Source of the DNA: a virus
Strand: one strand, 5' to 3'
IMG/VR virus record: IMGVR_UViG_3300013094_004141
Coordinates: 1 to 37,961 of that record
Length of the DNA stretch: 37,961 bases
Shown: one piece after another, positions 1,109 to 36,978 of the stretch
Numbering within the stretch: position 1 is the first letter of the stretch
Layout of the letters: the number at the start of each line of letters is the position of its first letter
Position numbers and translations under genes: made by a program
Notes under the pieces: generated by a model
The model's input: the letters and a program-made list of their open reading frames with translations, nothing else
What the model was told of the DNA's origin: nothing
Databases searched by the model: none

Positions 1109-1116
1109 TATAAATA
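1109..1116 (+). promoter_or_regulatory. T4-late-type promoter box for the tmRNA
   Basis: Exact TATAAATA, the T4 late promoter -10 element, pointing at the tmRNA. By T4 geometry the RNA would start about six bases after the box, near 1122. No other + strand gene lies between it and the tmRNA. Confidence 0.65.
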
Positions 1117-1149
1117 CAGTTGAGGACAGTCCCGAGTAACCCCGGGGTT

Positions 1150-1171
1150 GGTATTAGTTACCGCTAATACC
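1150..1171 (+). other. Perfect 8-bp hairpin in the tmRNA leader
   Basis: GGTATTAG (1150-1157) and CTAATACC (1164-1171) are exact inverted copies around a six-base loop. It lies inside the predicted pre-tmRNA, upstream of the acceptor piece, so it may be a pseudoknot or hairpin of the 5' piece or a processing signal. No T-tract follows directly, so it is not a convincing terminator. Confidence 0.55.
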
Positions 1172-1204
1172 TTACTCAATTATTTATCATCGTATGAAGG
1201 AATA

Positions 1205-1251
1205 AGAACAATTGACTGGACGCGGGGGGCGGTGCCCCGCCCGGTCCACCA
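1205..1251 (+). ncRNA. tmRNA acceptor piece (tRNA 3' half with CCA)
   Basis: This segment holds the helix-2 strand (1209-1214), a T-arm and the 3' acceptor strand with ACCA at 1248-1251. The T-arm can form GCGGGG/CCCCGC (1222-1227 with 1235-1240) around a 7-base loop GGCGGTG, or a 5-bp stem with a 9-base loop. The normal TTCRANT T-loop is absent. The 5' end is uncertain: the mature piece may reach back to about 1122 and include the 1150-1171 hairpin. Confidence 0.75.
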
Positions 1252-1338
1252 TAAACATATTAGAATCTGTAAAAAGATAGGGTTTGGTATCCCGGTCCTC
1301 TACCTGTAAGACTTAATACACCTTAGTATGTTTTTGAT

Positions 1339-1560
1339 GGGCCGGTCTTAGATTCGACAGTTGGTGCAGTATTTGACCAGACGATGCGGTAGGCGATGAC
1401 CGTAAATCAAGCAAAACTAGTAAATGCAAAAACATCTACAAAATTGGGTACTTTCAAAGTAACTGCAGGTAAAGGATTCCGCTTCAGCGGTTCTAAAGCT
1501 GCATCTACAAAGGAAGTAGCGTTCGTTTAATCGAACCCCACGGGGTAGGACTTACCTTGT
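1339..1560 (+). ncRNA. tmRNA coding piece (tRNA 5' half plus tag template)
   Basis: Starts with the 5' acceptor strand at 1339, followed by the D-arm region GATTCGAC, a pseudoknot-1-like stem near 1386-1401, the pre-tag motif CTAGTA (1417-1422), the tag frame, and a hairpin GTTCG/CGAAC (1521-1525 with 1532-1536) whose loop carries the tag stop codon, as in helix 5 of known tmRNAs. CCCC/GGGG and GGTA/TACC stems follow at about 1536-1556. The exact 3' end is unknown; it lies before the terminator. Confidence 0.75.
1423..1530 (+). other. tmRNA tag-peptide reading frame
   Basis: After CTAGTA, which matches the pre-resume-codon region of bacterial tmRNAs, a frame runs from AAT (1423) or GCA (1426) to TAA at 1528-1530. 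It encodes 34 or 35 residues beginning NAKTSTKLG and ending KAASTKEVAFV. Tags are usually shorter and end in ALAA- or AVAA-like degrons; this one is long, basic and ends in AFV. The frame choice rests on the stop codon sitting in the loop of a helix-5-like hairpin. The resume codon is inferred. Confidence 0.55.
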
Positions 1561-1576
1561 AAAATAAACAACCAGG

Positions 1577-1600
1577 ACCCGCTTCGGCGGGTTTCTTTTT
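1577..1600 (+). terminator. Intrinsic terminator of the tmRNA
   Basis: ACCCGC (1577-1582), tetraloop TTCG, GCGGGT (1587-1592), then TTCTTTTT. A textbook rho-independent terminator closing the tmRNA transcript. Confidence 0.92.
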
Positions 1601-13651: not shown

Positions 13652-16351
13652 ATGTCTTTACTTGCTAATTTATCTCTTCCATTCACTGGTGCGGCCCCAA
13701 ATGACGGGTCTGGCACTACTTTACGCGATGCGTTCAACGAAGTCAATACTGATTTATCGTTAATAGCTGCCGCAGTTGATCATCTCAATACATTAGGAAT
13801 AACAAGCGGTCCGCAAGGACCAACAGGCCCAAGCGGTCCATCGGGCCCAAGCGGTGCAATTGGTCCACAAGGTCCGATTGGTCCAATCGGTGCGTCTAGT
13901 ACAGTACCAGGTCCACAAGGACCACAAGGACCAATCGGCCCATCAGGCCCTCCCGGAGGTCCACAAGGGCCACAAGGCGATATTGGACCATCAGGACCAA
14001 GCGGTCCGCAAGGCCCAACAGGTCCAGCAAGCAATATACCAGGTCCAATCGGGCCATTGGGCCCAGCAGGACCAACAGGGCCAAGCGGTCCAACAGGCCC
14101 AGCAGGAGGACCGCAAGGCCCAACAGGCCCAGCAGGTAGCGCAGGACCAGCAGGTCCATCAGGTAGCACAGGTCCGGCAGGCCCATCAGGTCCAGCAGGA
14201 ACCGACGGTGCGGCAGGGCCAACAGGTCCAGCAGGCCCAGCAGGTAGCACAGGTCCAGCAGGCCCGGCAGGTCCTTCAGGTAGTCCAGGACCAAGCGGTC
14301 CAGCAGGTAGCACAGGCCCATCAGGTCCAAGTGGTCCATCGGGAGCAGCAAGCACAGTTCCGGGCCCAACAGGACCAAGTGGTCCAGCAGGTAGCACAGG
14401 CCCAGCGGGTCCAGCAGGTCCTTCAGGCAGTCCAGGACCAAGTGGTCCAGCAGGTAGCACAGGCCCAGCAGGCCCAGCAGGTCCGGCAGGTCCAATCGGT
14501 CCAATCGGACCAGCAGGAGGAACAGGACCGTCTGGTCCGTCGGGTAGTCCTGGTCCACAAGGACCCGCTGGTAATACAGGTCCTTCAGGTCCGTCGGGAC
14601 CAAGCGGAGCAACAGGAGCACAAGGACCACAAGGTCCAACCGGACCGTCAGGGGCACAAGGACCACAAGGACCAATTGGTCCAATAGGCACACAAGGATT
14701 ATTAGGCCCAACTGGACCTTCAGGAGTACAAGGACCACAGGGACCTCTTGGAGCACAAGGCCCACAAGGCCCGCAAGGTGCAAAGGCAGGATTAAAATAC
14801 TATTGGGATGGCGCTAATAGCGGTGTAGCAGGAACTAGTGGAAACGGTAGTCTTAGAACCAGTCAAAGTAACACATATCTTGCTTGGACTAACGCCACTA
14901 ATTTATATATAAGTGCATACGATGCCAATGGAGTTAGTCTAGTTAATTATATTACACAATGGGGAGCCAGTACTGGTCTTATAAAAGGACAAATCATTAT
15001 GCAAGATAGTGCAAATGATTTTGTAGTTTATAACATAACTGGTTCAGTTATCAATAATTCAACTTATTTTACTATTCCGGTTACTTCTGTCGGCAGCTCA
15101 TCCACTGTTCCAGCCAACAATACCACATTATATCTTGAATTTGTTCGTACAGGTGATGTGGGACCAAGCGGTCCACAAGGACCACAAGGAACAACAACTT
15201 ACGTATATAATGTTAAAAGTCCAGTGTATGGAGCCAAAGGAGATGGCTCAACCGACGATACCGCAAGTATTCAAAGTGCAATTACTGCAGCTACTACCAC
15301 TGGCGGAACAGTATTTTTCCCGGCCGGTACTTATAAAATTACCAGTGGTGTATCGCTATCAATAACAAACGGTAGTGATCCTGGTCCCAGAGTGCACTTT
15401 CTCGGAGAAGGTATTGGAGCCAGTATAATTAAACAGTTTTCCAGTTCTAGCAATGGTATTAACATAGTTTCAACTAATGTAAACTGTTATGTTCAGATTT
15501 CCAGTTTAACCATATTAGGTGCAGGCGGCGGATCTGGAATTAATTTTAGCGGTGGTTGGTTCTGTAGAATTAGAGATTGTGAAATATACAACTGGATCAA
15601 CGGTGTTTACGCTACAAATATGGTTGCATCTACCATAGATGCTTGCTATATCAAATATAATACTACCGGTGTTGCTATCACTAATGCCGCAGGAACAGGT
15701 CAAATTGATCCTAGCGGTATCAACATTATCAATACTGAAATTGGCTGGAACACCAGTATAGGTATTAGTATAACTGGGCCCAGTAATTTTACCATGACCA
15801 GCTGTTATGTGGATAACAACGGTACAATTGGCAGCAGCACCTATGCTGTGCAATTGTATGATAGCGGTGGAGTAGTAGCTGAAGTTGATCCAGCAGGATT
15901 TGTGATACAGGGCACGCTATTTTATCAAAACGGCGGTATAGCTGACATCTTAGTAAGACAAGATGTTGCGAGAAGCGGAGTAACTGGAACTATTATTGGT
16001 TGCGGATTCACTAGAACTCCTACTAATTATACCACTAACAATATATCTTTGCAAGGATCTGCATCTACTACTACTTTCCCTGTTAGCATTATCAGTTGCG
16101 GATTCTATGCAGGGAATTATAGTGCAAGTCGTCCAACCATTGGAAACTCCAGTAATTGGTGGCCAGTTTTACTACAGGCCTGTAACTTTGGTAGCAGCGT
16201 AGATCAATATGTACCACCAACTCCATCCAATGGAACAAGCCCTGGTGTATTGGGACAAACTATAGTAGATAAAACAGGTGGTAATTTGTACTTCTGTTAT
16301 GCACCAAACACGTGGGCAAAGATTAGTGGTTTAGTCTATGCTTCATTTTAA
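13652..16351 (+). CDS. Tail fibre with collagen-like stalk and beta-helix tip
   Basis: An 899-residue virion protein. Residues 14-39 ([18 protein letters not shown]) are a probable attachment motif shared with the next gene. Residues about 53-365 are Gly-X-Y collagen-like triplets, mostly GPQ, GPS, GPA and GPT, broken by two ASTVPGP interruptions, which would form a triple-helical stalk. A second short triplet run lies near 507-515. From about 520 a pectate-lyase-3 beta-helix begins ([19 protein letters not shown]) and runs almost to the end, closing with [13 protein letters not shown]. Likely binds or degrades host surface polysaccharide. Trimeric assembly is inferred. Confidence 0.88.
14243..14475 (+). 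repeat. 147-bp-period direct repeat in the collagen-like region
   Basis: A block of about 85 bases beginning GGTAGCACAGG at 14243 recurs from 14390 with a few third-position changes (49-codon period). Both copies encode [20 protein letters not shown]. This suggests internal duplication followed by synonymous drift. Confidence 0.6.
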
Positions 16352-34740: not shown

Positions 34741-36978
34741 ATGCTACAAAACAATCCAGACATTGACTCTATTATCGAAGTTGCTACAAAAATAGCACAA
34801 AGTAAAAACCACGAATATGTAACCTTGGAACATTTATTGTTGTCTATGGTAACGTATCAGCCATTTACAGAAACTCTATCATCATTTGGTTGTATTGTTG
34901 ACGAAATGCAAAGAGAAATAGACACATATTTAGACAAACAAACATATTTGAGCAACAAAGGGTTCGACCCGGTTCCCAAGAAAACTCATAGCCTAGAACG
35001 TGTATTCAACCGTGCATTCACACAGGTACTGTTCAGTGGCAGACAAACAATGCAATTGGTTGATTTGTATTTGAGTTTAATGAACGAAGAACGCAGTCAC
35101 GTAAGATACTTTTTACTCAAGTACGGAGTCGAGCGTGCTGCATTTGTGGAACATTGGAATAAAGTCAACGATTCACCTAAAGATGGAAAAAGCAAAAGGA
35201 GCAGATCTGCAGTGGACGGTATTTTAGAAGAACATTGCGAAAATCTAAACGAGCAAGCCGAGCGTGGGGAAATTGATCCTGTTATTGGTAGAGAGCTTGA
35301 AATCGAAGAAATCACACAGGTACTGGCTAAACGTAATAAATCAAATGTACTAATGGTAGGCGATCCTGGTGTAGGTAAAACTGCTATTGCAGAAGGCCTT
35401 GCACGTAATATTGTTAACGGCAATGTACCTGAATATTTGAAAGGGTTCGTAGTTTACAATTTAGATATTGGCAGTTTACTTGCTGGTAGTAAGTATCGCG
35501 GCGAATTCGAAGAAAAACTCAAGGATGTTATTCGTGCATTGAATACCAAAGGCAAGTGTATTTTGTTTATCGACGAAGCACATCAAATGAAAGGTGCAGG
35601 CGGCGGAGCACAAAGTAGTGTGGACTTTGCTAATATGATTAAACCAGCACTTACCAAAGGACGTATTAAAGTTATTGCTAGTACAACGTGGGAAGAATAT
35701 ACACAAAGTTTTGAAAAGGATCGTGCACTAATGCGCAGATTCTATAGACTAACTGTAGAGGAACCTACCCCAGCGGTTGCTAAAGATATTCTTAAAGGAT
35801 TGAAAGTGCATTTTGAAGCGTTTCACGGTGGTATGATTACCGATGAAGCCATTAACTCAGCAGTAGATCTCAGTGTGCGTTATCAAACAGACAAACGCTT
35901 GCCCGACAAGGCAATTGACTTAATCGATACTGCGGCTGCAAAACTTAAAATTGTTGCCCCAGACTTTATTGTACGCAAGAGTCATATTATCGATACACTC
36001 AGCAAGTTTACCAAGATTCCAGTGGATCAAATGGATCAACAGGGCAACAATAGTTTAGAAAAATTGGAACCCAATATCAAAACTAAACTGTTTGGACAAG
36101 ATGCTGCAGTAGATGCTGTATTAGATAAAATTTATGTAAGCCGTGCTGGACTTAAATCAATTAACAAGCCTGTGGGCAGTTTCTTGTTCTTGGGCCCAAC
36201 AGGTACAGGTAAAACTGAACTTGCTAAATTGTTAGCCGAAAACTTAGGAATGAAACTGTTACGCTATGATATGAGTGAGTATCAAGAAAAGCACAGTATT
36301 GCCAAGTTGATTGGTGCACCTCCTGGATATATTGGCTACGATGATGGCAATATCGGTGGCGGATTACTGATCAGTGATGTTGAAAAGAATCCTAACTGTG
36401 TTATCTTATTTGATGAAATTGAAAAAGCACACACTGATGTCAGTAACCTGTTGTTAAGTTTAATGGATGAGGGTATTATTACCAGCAGTAACGGCAAAAA
36501 AGCAGACTGCAGAAACGCCATTGTTATTTTAACCAGTAACTTAGGTGCTGCAGACGGGGAAAGAAATAGCATTGGCTTTGGTAGAGATCTTGAGCGCAAA
36601 GGCGAAGACGATAAAGCAGTTAAAGATTTCTTTAAGCCTGAGTTCCGTAATCGTTTGGATGCAATTATTAAGTTTAACAAGCTGAATAAAGAAAGCATTA
36701 AGAAAATTACTATTAGATTTATCAATGAGATGAATGACCTATTAGGCAACAAACAAATTACTGTTGCATTAACAGAAACAGCATACGATTATGTTATCAA
36801 AGAAGGTTTTGATAGTAAAATGGGTGCAAGACCATTGAATAGAAAAATTAATGATTTAATTAAAACTCCGCTAAGTAAAAAGATACTATTTGAAAATATT
36901 TCAAACAGCATAATCAGAGTTGACTATACTGATAAAATTGAATTCCATATTGAAAATCAATTTGCACCAACAACCTAA
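34741..36978 (+). CDS. clpA: ClpA-type AAA+ unfoldase
   Basis: A 745-residue Hsp100 protein. Clp-N repeats at about 1-140; first ATPase domain with Walker A GDPGVGKT (207-214) and Walker B ILFIDEAH (274-281); second with Walker A GPTGTGKT (485-492), pore loop GYIG (529-532) and Walker B VILFDEIEKAH (554-564). There is no middle coiled-coil insert, so it is ClpA-like and not ClpB. The segment ERNSIGFGRD (607-616) places an IGF tripeptide where ClpA carries the ClpP-docking IGL loop, so docking to host ClpP is likely. It unfolds proteins for degradation. No ClpP or ClpS gene is in the window. Confidence 0.93.
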   Translation: MLQNNPDIDSIIEVATKIAQSKNHEYVTLEHLLLSMVTYQPFTETLSSFGCIVDEMQREIDTYLDKQTYLSNKGFDPVPKKTHSLERVFNRAFTQVLFSGRQTMQLVDLYLSLMNEERSHVRYFLLKYGVERAAFVEHWNKVNDSPKDGKSKRSRSAVDGILEEHCENLNEQAERGEIDPVIGRELEIEEITQVLAKRNKSNVLMVGDPGVGKTAIAEGLARNIVNGNVPEYLKGFVVYNLDIGSLLAGSKYRGEFEEKLKDVIRALNTKGKCILFIDEAHQMKGAGGGAQSSVDFANMIKPALTKGRIKVIASTTWEEYTQSFEKDRALMRRFYRLTVEEPTPAVAKDILKGLKVHFEAFHGGMITDEAINSAVDLSVRYQTDKRLPDKAIDLIDTAAAKLKIVAPDFIVRKSHIIDTLSKFTKIPVDQMDQQGNNSLEKLEPNIKTKLFGQDAAVDAVLDKIYVSRAGLKSINKPVGSFLFLGPTGTGKTELAKLLAENLGMKLLRYDMSEYQEKHSIAKLIGAPPGYIGYDDGNIGGGLLISDVEKNPNCVILFDEIEKAHTDVSNLLLSLMDEGIITSSNGKKADCRNAIVILTSNLGAADGERNSIGFGRDLERKGEDDKAVKDFFKPEFRNRLDAIIKFNKLNKESIKKITIRFINEMNDLLGNKQITVALTETAYDYVIKEGFDSKMGARPLNRKINDLIKTPLSKKILFENISNSIIRVDYTDKIEFHIENQFAPTT

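Follow-up and report, generated by a model that had tools for sequence, protein, structure and literature searches.

The stretch of DNA analyzed here (the window) is a 37,961-base IMG/VR virus record, a ~38-kb fragment of a jumbo phage that has not been cultured and that has relatives with a betaproteobacterial-type tmRNA. It encodes tail fibers, an endolysin, PhoH, a clamp loader, a ligase, DnaJ and a ClpA-like unfoldase; the dnaJ-clpA neighborhood is held in common with the jumbo phages Phosso, Atu_ph07 and MIJ3, and contigs that encode close relatives of ClpA or of the ligase are up to 374 kb long. Near one end of the window, on the + strand, lies a permuted tmRNA gene. Directly upstream of it and divergent from it is a GIY-YIG homing endonuclease gene (364-1095, - strand), which may have moved in next to the tmRNA; when the tmRNA locus was compared by blastn with annotated phages, the matches were to the homing endonuclease and short chance ones only. 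On the opposite strand, the 5' coding end of the endonuclease gene holds the perfect sigma-70 type promoter of the tmRNA (TTGACA-N17-TATAAT, 1058-1086, + strand, 12/12 consensus positions), and sigma-70-like sites matching at ≥10/12 positions are found upstream of 38% of phage tmRNAs, as against 6.7% in shuffled sequences. The original prediction had instead put the gene under a late promoter, presumably the weak T4-late-promoter-like TATAAATA at 1109-1116 (+ strand); this element occurs at chance frequency (5 in the window, 3.6 expected) and is present at 7 of 104 relatives, and with a perfect sigma-70 promoter upstream a late promoter for the tmRNA is doubtful. An intrinsic terminator (1575-1597, + strand) forms the downstream flank of the gene. 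Farther along the window a truncated-looking UDP-glucose dehydrogenase gene (1629-2405) adjoins a rubrerythrin-family gene (Pfam PF02915, 2468-2917), and one tail fiber of 899 aa (13652-16351) contains collagen-like Gly-Pro-X repeats.

Identity and architecture of the two-piece RNA

The sole Rfam match in the whole window is to RF04321 (tmRNA_permuted), at 1188-1473 on the + strand; its score of 82.7 bits is well over the cut-off of 47, and its E value is 1.5e-14. Rfam supports the original prediction through this permuted family and not through the alpha or beta ones: the score for RF01849 (alpha_tmRNA) is 47.4, slightly below the cut-off of 50, on which the candidate assignment of the window as alpha-type was rejected, and the RF01850 (beta_tmRNA) cut-off of 84 is not reached, because the best match in that clan is the alpha one at 47.4. 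ARAGORN, likewise named there as a means of verification, reported no tmRNA in the window. The claim of a phage-encoded, circularly permuted, two-piece tmRNA is borne out by the RF04321 score and by the acceptor stem and the helix that joins the pieces, both of which vary in a compensatory way among related phages, and every structural element originally described lies where it had been placed.

The halves of the tRNA-like domain are in reversed order, the CCA-bearing half (1241-1251) preceding the 5' half that begins at 1339. The piece transcribed first, the acceptor piece (1188-1251, + strand; bounded by the start of the RF04321 model, where the mature 5' end is predicted, and by the CCA), comprises the tRNA-like 3' half with the T arm. 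It opens with the strand CATCGT (1188-1193) of the outer helix 2 and closes with the 3' strand of the acceptor stem, CCGGTCC (1241-1247), followed by A (1248) and an encoded CCA (1249-1251). An intervening segment of 87 nt (1252-1338), which is presumably cut out by tRNA-processing enzymes, separates this piece from the next; it is longer than the 24-42 nt of most bacterial beta-type copies examined, and is closed in the predicted fold by a helix of 11 bp (1253-1263/1323-1333) whose fold energy is unexceptional (z -0.75). The coding piece (1339-1597, + strand, from RF04321 and the predicted fold; its mature 3' end is predicted) holds the tRNA-like 5' half, the tag frame and the terminator. Its first seven bases, GGGCCGG (1339-1345), pair 7/7 with the acceptor strand and include G1341.U1245, the G3.U70 determinant of alanyl-tRNA synthetase; GATTCGAC is located at 1351-1358, and ACGATG (1381-1386) is the second strand of helix 2. 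The tag stop codon lies in the loop of a hairpin resembling helix 5 (GTTCG-TTTAAT-CGAAC, 1521-1536, + strand). Gene order, tRNA-like domain, T arm and helix 2 are as in the RF04321 and RF01850 tmRNAs (PMC11915505).

In fold energy the two pieces do not stand out (z -1.57 and -1.40). Among the matches listed, G3.U70 is present in 106/106 distinct phage genes, although the finder left the U unforced, and acceptor pairs 4-6 covary across the same 106 genes, so that the covariation looked for in the acceptor pairing was found around a constant G.U at pair 3. Helix 2 shows a compensatory series, CATCGT/ACGATG in the window being replaced in relatives by GATCGT/ACGATC, GACTGT/ACAGTC, TGCTGT/ACAGCA and TATGGT/ACCATA. 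The stop-codon hairpin keeps its pairing among relatives while the stem sequence varies; its score against shuffles does not exceed the 95% null, and it is therefore argued only from this conserved position and changing stem.

Distribution among phages

In 100 contigs with close ClpA or ligase relatives, the RF04321 search yielded 20 records above the cut-off, including 7 of the 8 contigs longer than 280 kb; Phosso also matches, and Atu_ph07, XaC1 and MIJ3 do not. Pattern scans of IMG/VR added at least about a hundred further permuted tmRNA loci. Several relatives score above the RF01850 cut-off, and this beta-type character suggests betaproteobacterial hosts for them.

The expectation that few or none had been described on a phage does not hold, because phage two-piece tmRNAs have already been published: PMC9004378 describes them in Methylophilales phage Melnitz, SAR11 phages and other phages, with 53 structures in phage genomes, and dozens more were found here. 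A further paper gives 79 phage tmRNA sequences (PMC11915505). The Melnitz and SAR11 RNAs are likewise phage-encoded and circularly permuted, with early expression proposed (PMC9004378); Melnitz differs in that its RNA is of alphaproteobacterial type and comes with a glutamine riboswitch, where the window's relatives have a beta-type RNA. In the passages of that article consulted here, long tags are not mentioned. The Rfam scan of the window detected no riboswitch beside its tmRNA, of the Melnitz glutamine type or any other.

Several individual loci were also recorded. The cultured Stenotrophomonas phage vB_SmaS-DLP_6 has at 1501-1693 (our locus L503) a permuted tmRNA that is unannotated in its record, with the tag ANDDSFAPMAIAA. 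In an alpha-like phage permuted tmRNA (IMGVR_UViG_3300045391_000883, L009) the intervening segment is very short and the tag, AEMPMAA, apparently has just 7 aa. In L221 and L223 the acceptor stem is GTGGCGG/CCGCTAC, with T-A at pair 2 and G3.U70 retained; these two loci, together with L198, L236 and L240, have unusual T loops, CTTCGAAG-like or CTATCGTATG. L375 and L376 are permuted phage tmRNAs with a different coding region, lacking the standard GTAAATGCA resume context and possibly encoding another long tag that ends ...VALQMAA.

The extended tag peptide

What the original prediction overlooked is the tag peptide, which at 34 aa is the unusual part of this RNA. The tag reading frame (1426-1530, + strand), identified by its resume context and by selection, runs from the resume codon GCA at 1426 through 34 codons, encoding AKTSTKLGTFKVTAGKGFRFSGSKAASTKEVAFV, to TAA at 1528-1530; the resume context GTAAATGCA is common to the window and its relatives. 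Among the matches listed, the tags of about 106 distinct phage permuted tmRNAs are bimodal in length, 63 having 10-15 aa and 43 having 23-34 aa, and in the subset of listed matches found by the T-arm pattern alone 26 of 78 are long. Long tags begin as a rule with A(K/N/T)(T/A)(S/N/D)T and fall into families. That of the window is VKVTxGKGFRFGG...EAAFA (a member being AKTSTTMGAVKVTAGKGFRFGGSKSVATEAAFA), from whose ending the window's own AFV departs; others are, for example, FKFSGKGVKLASARREAVLA, TFDFSAMSFTGNTV...FALAA, FEYFKVP...FAMAA and VKVTxSKAAFFGR...VLLAA.

In five long-tag families, with the last ten residues excluded, pN/pS is 0.20, 0.42, 0.51, 0.55 and 0.68; the lowest value belongs to the TFDF family, in which differences are distributed over the three codon positions as 88/136/458. 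For tag pairs that include the window, pS is 0.46 and pN 0.20, a ratio of 0.44 over the whole tag. Judged from these substitution patterns, the long-tag families are under purifying selection, and because pN/pS is below 1 and the codon positions are biased, the extended tag peptide is very probably translated and selected. A search for long tags as copied segments of phage proteins gave no convincing match, and a genome-wide search with the DNA pattern of the long-tag start gave 52 matches (in Bacteroidota, Firmicutes, archaea and others), none of them with a permuted tmRNA according to the finder script.

Bacterial counterparts sampled here are short. Of 399 genomes belonging to one order, 15 gave a permuted tmRNA with RF01850; the readable tags among these have 10 aa (ANDERFALAA, ANDENFALAA and similar), and one of the 15 (L484) has no clear tag; an unrelated gammaproteobacterial permuted tmRNA has a tag of 12 aa. 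The tags recorded for bacteria span 8-35 aa (PMC8012679), and the most frequent tag in the tmRNA database has 10 aa (PMC11915505), as compared with 34 aa in the window. With 10 residues as the usual tag, families of long tags maintained by selection appear to be new for the permuted tmRNAs of phages; a search of open-access main texts turned up no report of them, nor one that links them with a phage ClpA-ClpP pair. A close parallel is the tag of Mycoplasma and Mesoplasma tmRNA, which is also long, replaces the short ALAA tag, ends in AFA and is recognized by Lon in bacteria that have no ClpXP (PMC3985003, PMC9382460). The window's tag family likewise ends in AFA; the window's own tag, unlike these, ends in AFV, and recognition by Lon would here be by analogy. 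Many long phage tags retain the LAA end, and therefore the protease need not change.

Candidate partners, function and alternative explanations

A possible functional partner is the phage ClpA-like unfoldase (34741-36978, + strand; PDB 1ksf, E 1.8e-175; PHROG 4871), which aligned with E. coli ClpA (1ksf) has ERNSIGF for ERKSIGL, i.e. IGF where E. coli has the ClpP-docking IGL. Of 22 phage records, 14 encode ClpP, and the Ser, His and Asp catalytic motifs are present in 8/8 sequences examined. In 9 of the 10 IMG/VR records that have both genes, ClpP precedes the tmRNA by 8-24 kb and shares its strand; the window begins 1.2 kb before the tmRNA and so shows no ClpP either way, ClpP being seen in relatives only. 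Uncultured jumbo phages (e.g. L487-L492) combine ClpP having intact catalytic motifs with a ClpA-like unfoldase, DnaJ and tmRNA. Sinorhizobium phage Phosso is likewise a jumbo phage with dnaJ-clpA, ClpP and a permuted tmRNA, and differs in its 13-aa tag (ANDNVSTKVALAA), alpha-type RNA and 410-nt intervening segment. Tag length does not follow the presence of ClpP, since the short-tag relatives G030, G036 and G051 encode it as well. SmpB was found in 0 of 22 phage records by a search that was positive in 10 of 14 control genomes, and no one-piece tmRNA scored above the cut-off in ClpP-bearing relatives without the permuted form. Bacillus phage G and the mycobacteriophage Bxz1 group have tmRNAs of the one-piece kind, and that of Bxz1 probably has a long tag. 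These too are phage-encoded (PMC4131195).

On what can be read from the sequences, namely tmRNA identity, structure, covariation, conservation of the tag, the co-encoded ClpA and the ClpP of relatives, we put the probability at about 0.8 that this is a working phage two-piece tmRNA which borrows host SmpB and adds an evolved 34-residue tag, likely to change the fate of tagged proteins. What we infer beyond this, from expression of the gene through processing and charging of the RNA to its use of host SmpB and the routing to a protease, would run as follows. One precursor would be made from the sigma-70 promoter, probably early; the intervening segment would be removed by the host's RNase P and tRNA 3'-end enzymes, and the acceptor and coding pieces would stay joined through acceptor-stem and helix-2 pairing. 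The RNA would be charged with alanine via G3.U70 and would work with host SmpB, proposed because smpB was not found in these phages. During infection, ribosomes stalled on broken mRNA would be freed and the 34-residue tag added to unfinished proteins. Such a tag would be an evolved, extended form under protein-level selection, unlike the 10-residue host tag, and its likely purpose would be a new fate for tagged proteins, e.g. delivery to phage ClpA-ClpP or Lon. The stronger proposal of a private tag-and-degrade pathway, in which a phage-specific extended degron is read by phage ClpA-ClpP (or Lon) and replaces the host ClpXP route, is tentative and, in our estimate, rather improbable.

The chief alternative is that the phage simply acquired a host tmRNA, which supplements the host's own ribosome rescue during infection, the longer tag being tolerated, functionless drift. 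The structure does agree with host permuted tmRNAs, many phage copies retain a host-like 10-aa tag, and growth of phage lambda-imm-P22 depended more on ribosome recycling than on tagging, according to studies summarized in PMC2862035; however, drift comports poorly with purifying selection on the extension in every family (pN/pS 0.20-0.68, and 0.44 for window pairs) and with a bimodal tag length, and we regard this explanation as unlikely while still giving it appreciable weight. Selection on the peptide speaks also against a decoy that would bind SmpB, EF-Tu or alanyl-tRNA synthetase and so block host trans-translation, as does retention of the mRNA-like domain, resume context, tag frame and stop hairpin; this idea, for which phage DS6A offers a precedent in that its tmRNA is a tRNA-like domain only and tmRNA can be inhibited by a molecule of similar kind (PMC4131195, PMC11915505), is very improbable. 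We hold it scarcely credible that the gene is a decaying remnant, no longer functional: the window does score lower than most relatives (82.7 against mostly 90-142 bits) and its tag end, AFV, differs from the AFA of the family, but the helices are all intact, the 34-codon frame is open with pS exceeding pN, the promoter is perfect and a terminator is present.

The working tmRNA with an evolved tag is thus the reading we prefer. Long phage tags are two to three times the length of the bacterial tags sampled here, form several conserved families, and are present in phages that encode a ClpA-like unfoldase along with ClpP. If the private pathway were true, ribosome rescue in infection would feed phage-controlled proteolysis instead of host ClpXP. 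If the tag is used, the trans-translation tag would have been repeatedly re-engineered by phages, and these RNAs would allow the value of tagging to a virus to be tested directly, besides providing a natural collection of new degrons.
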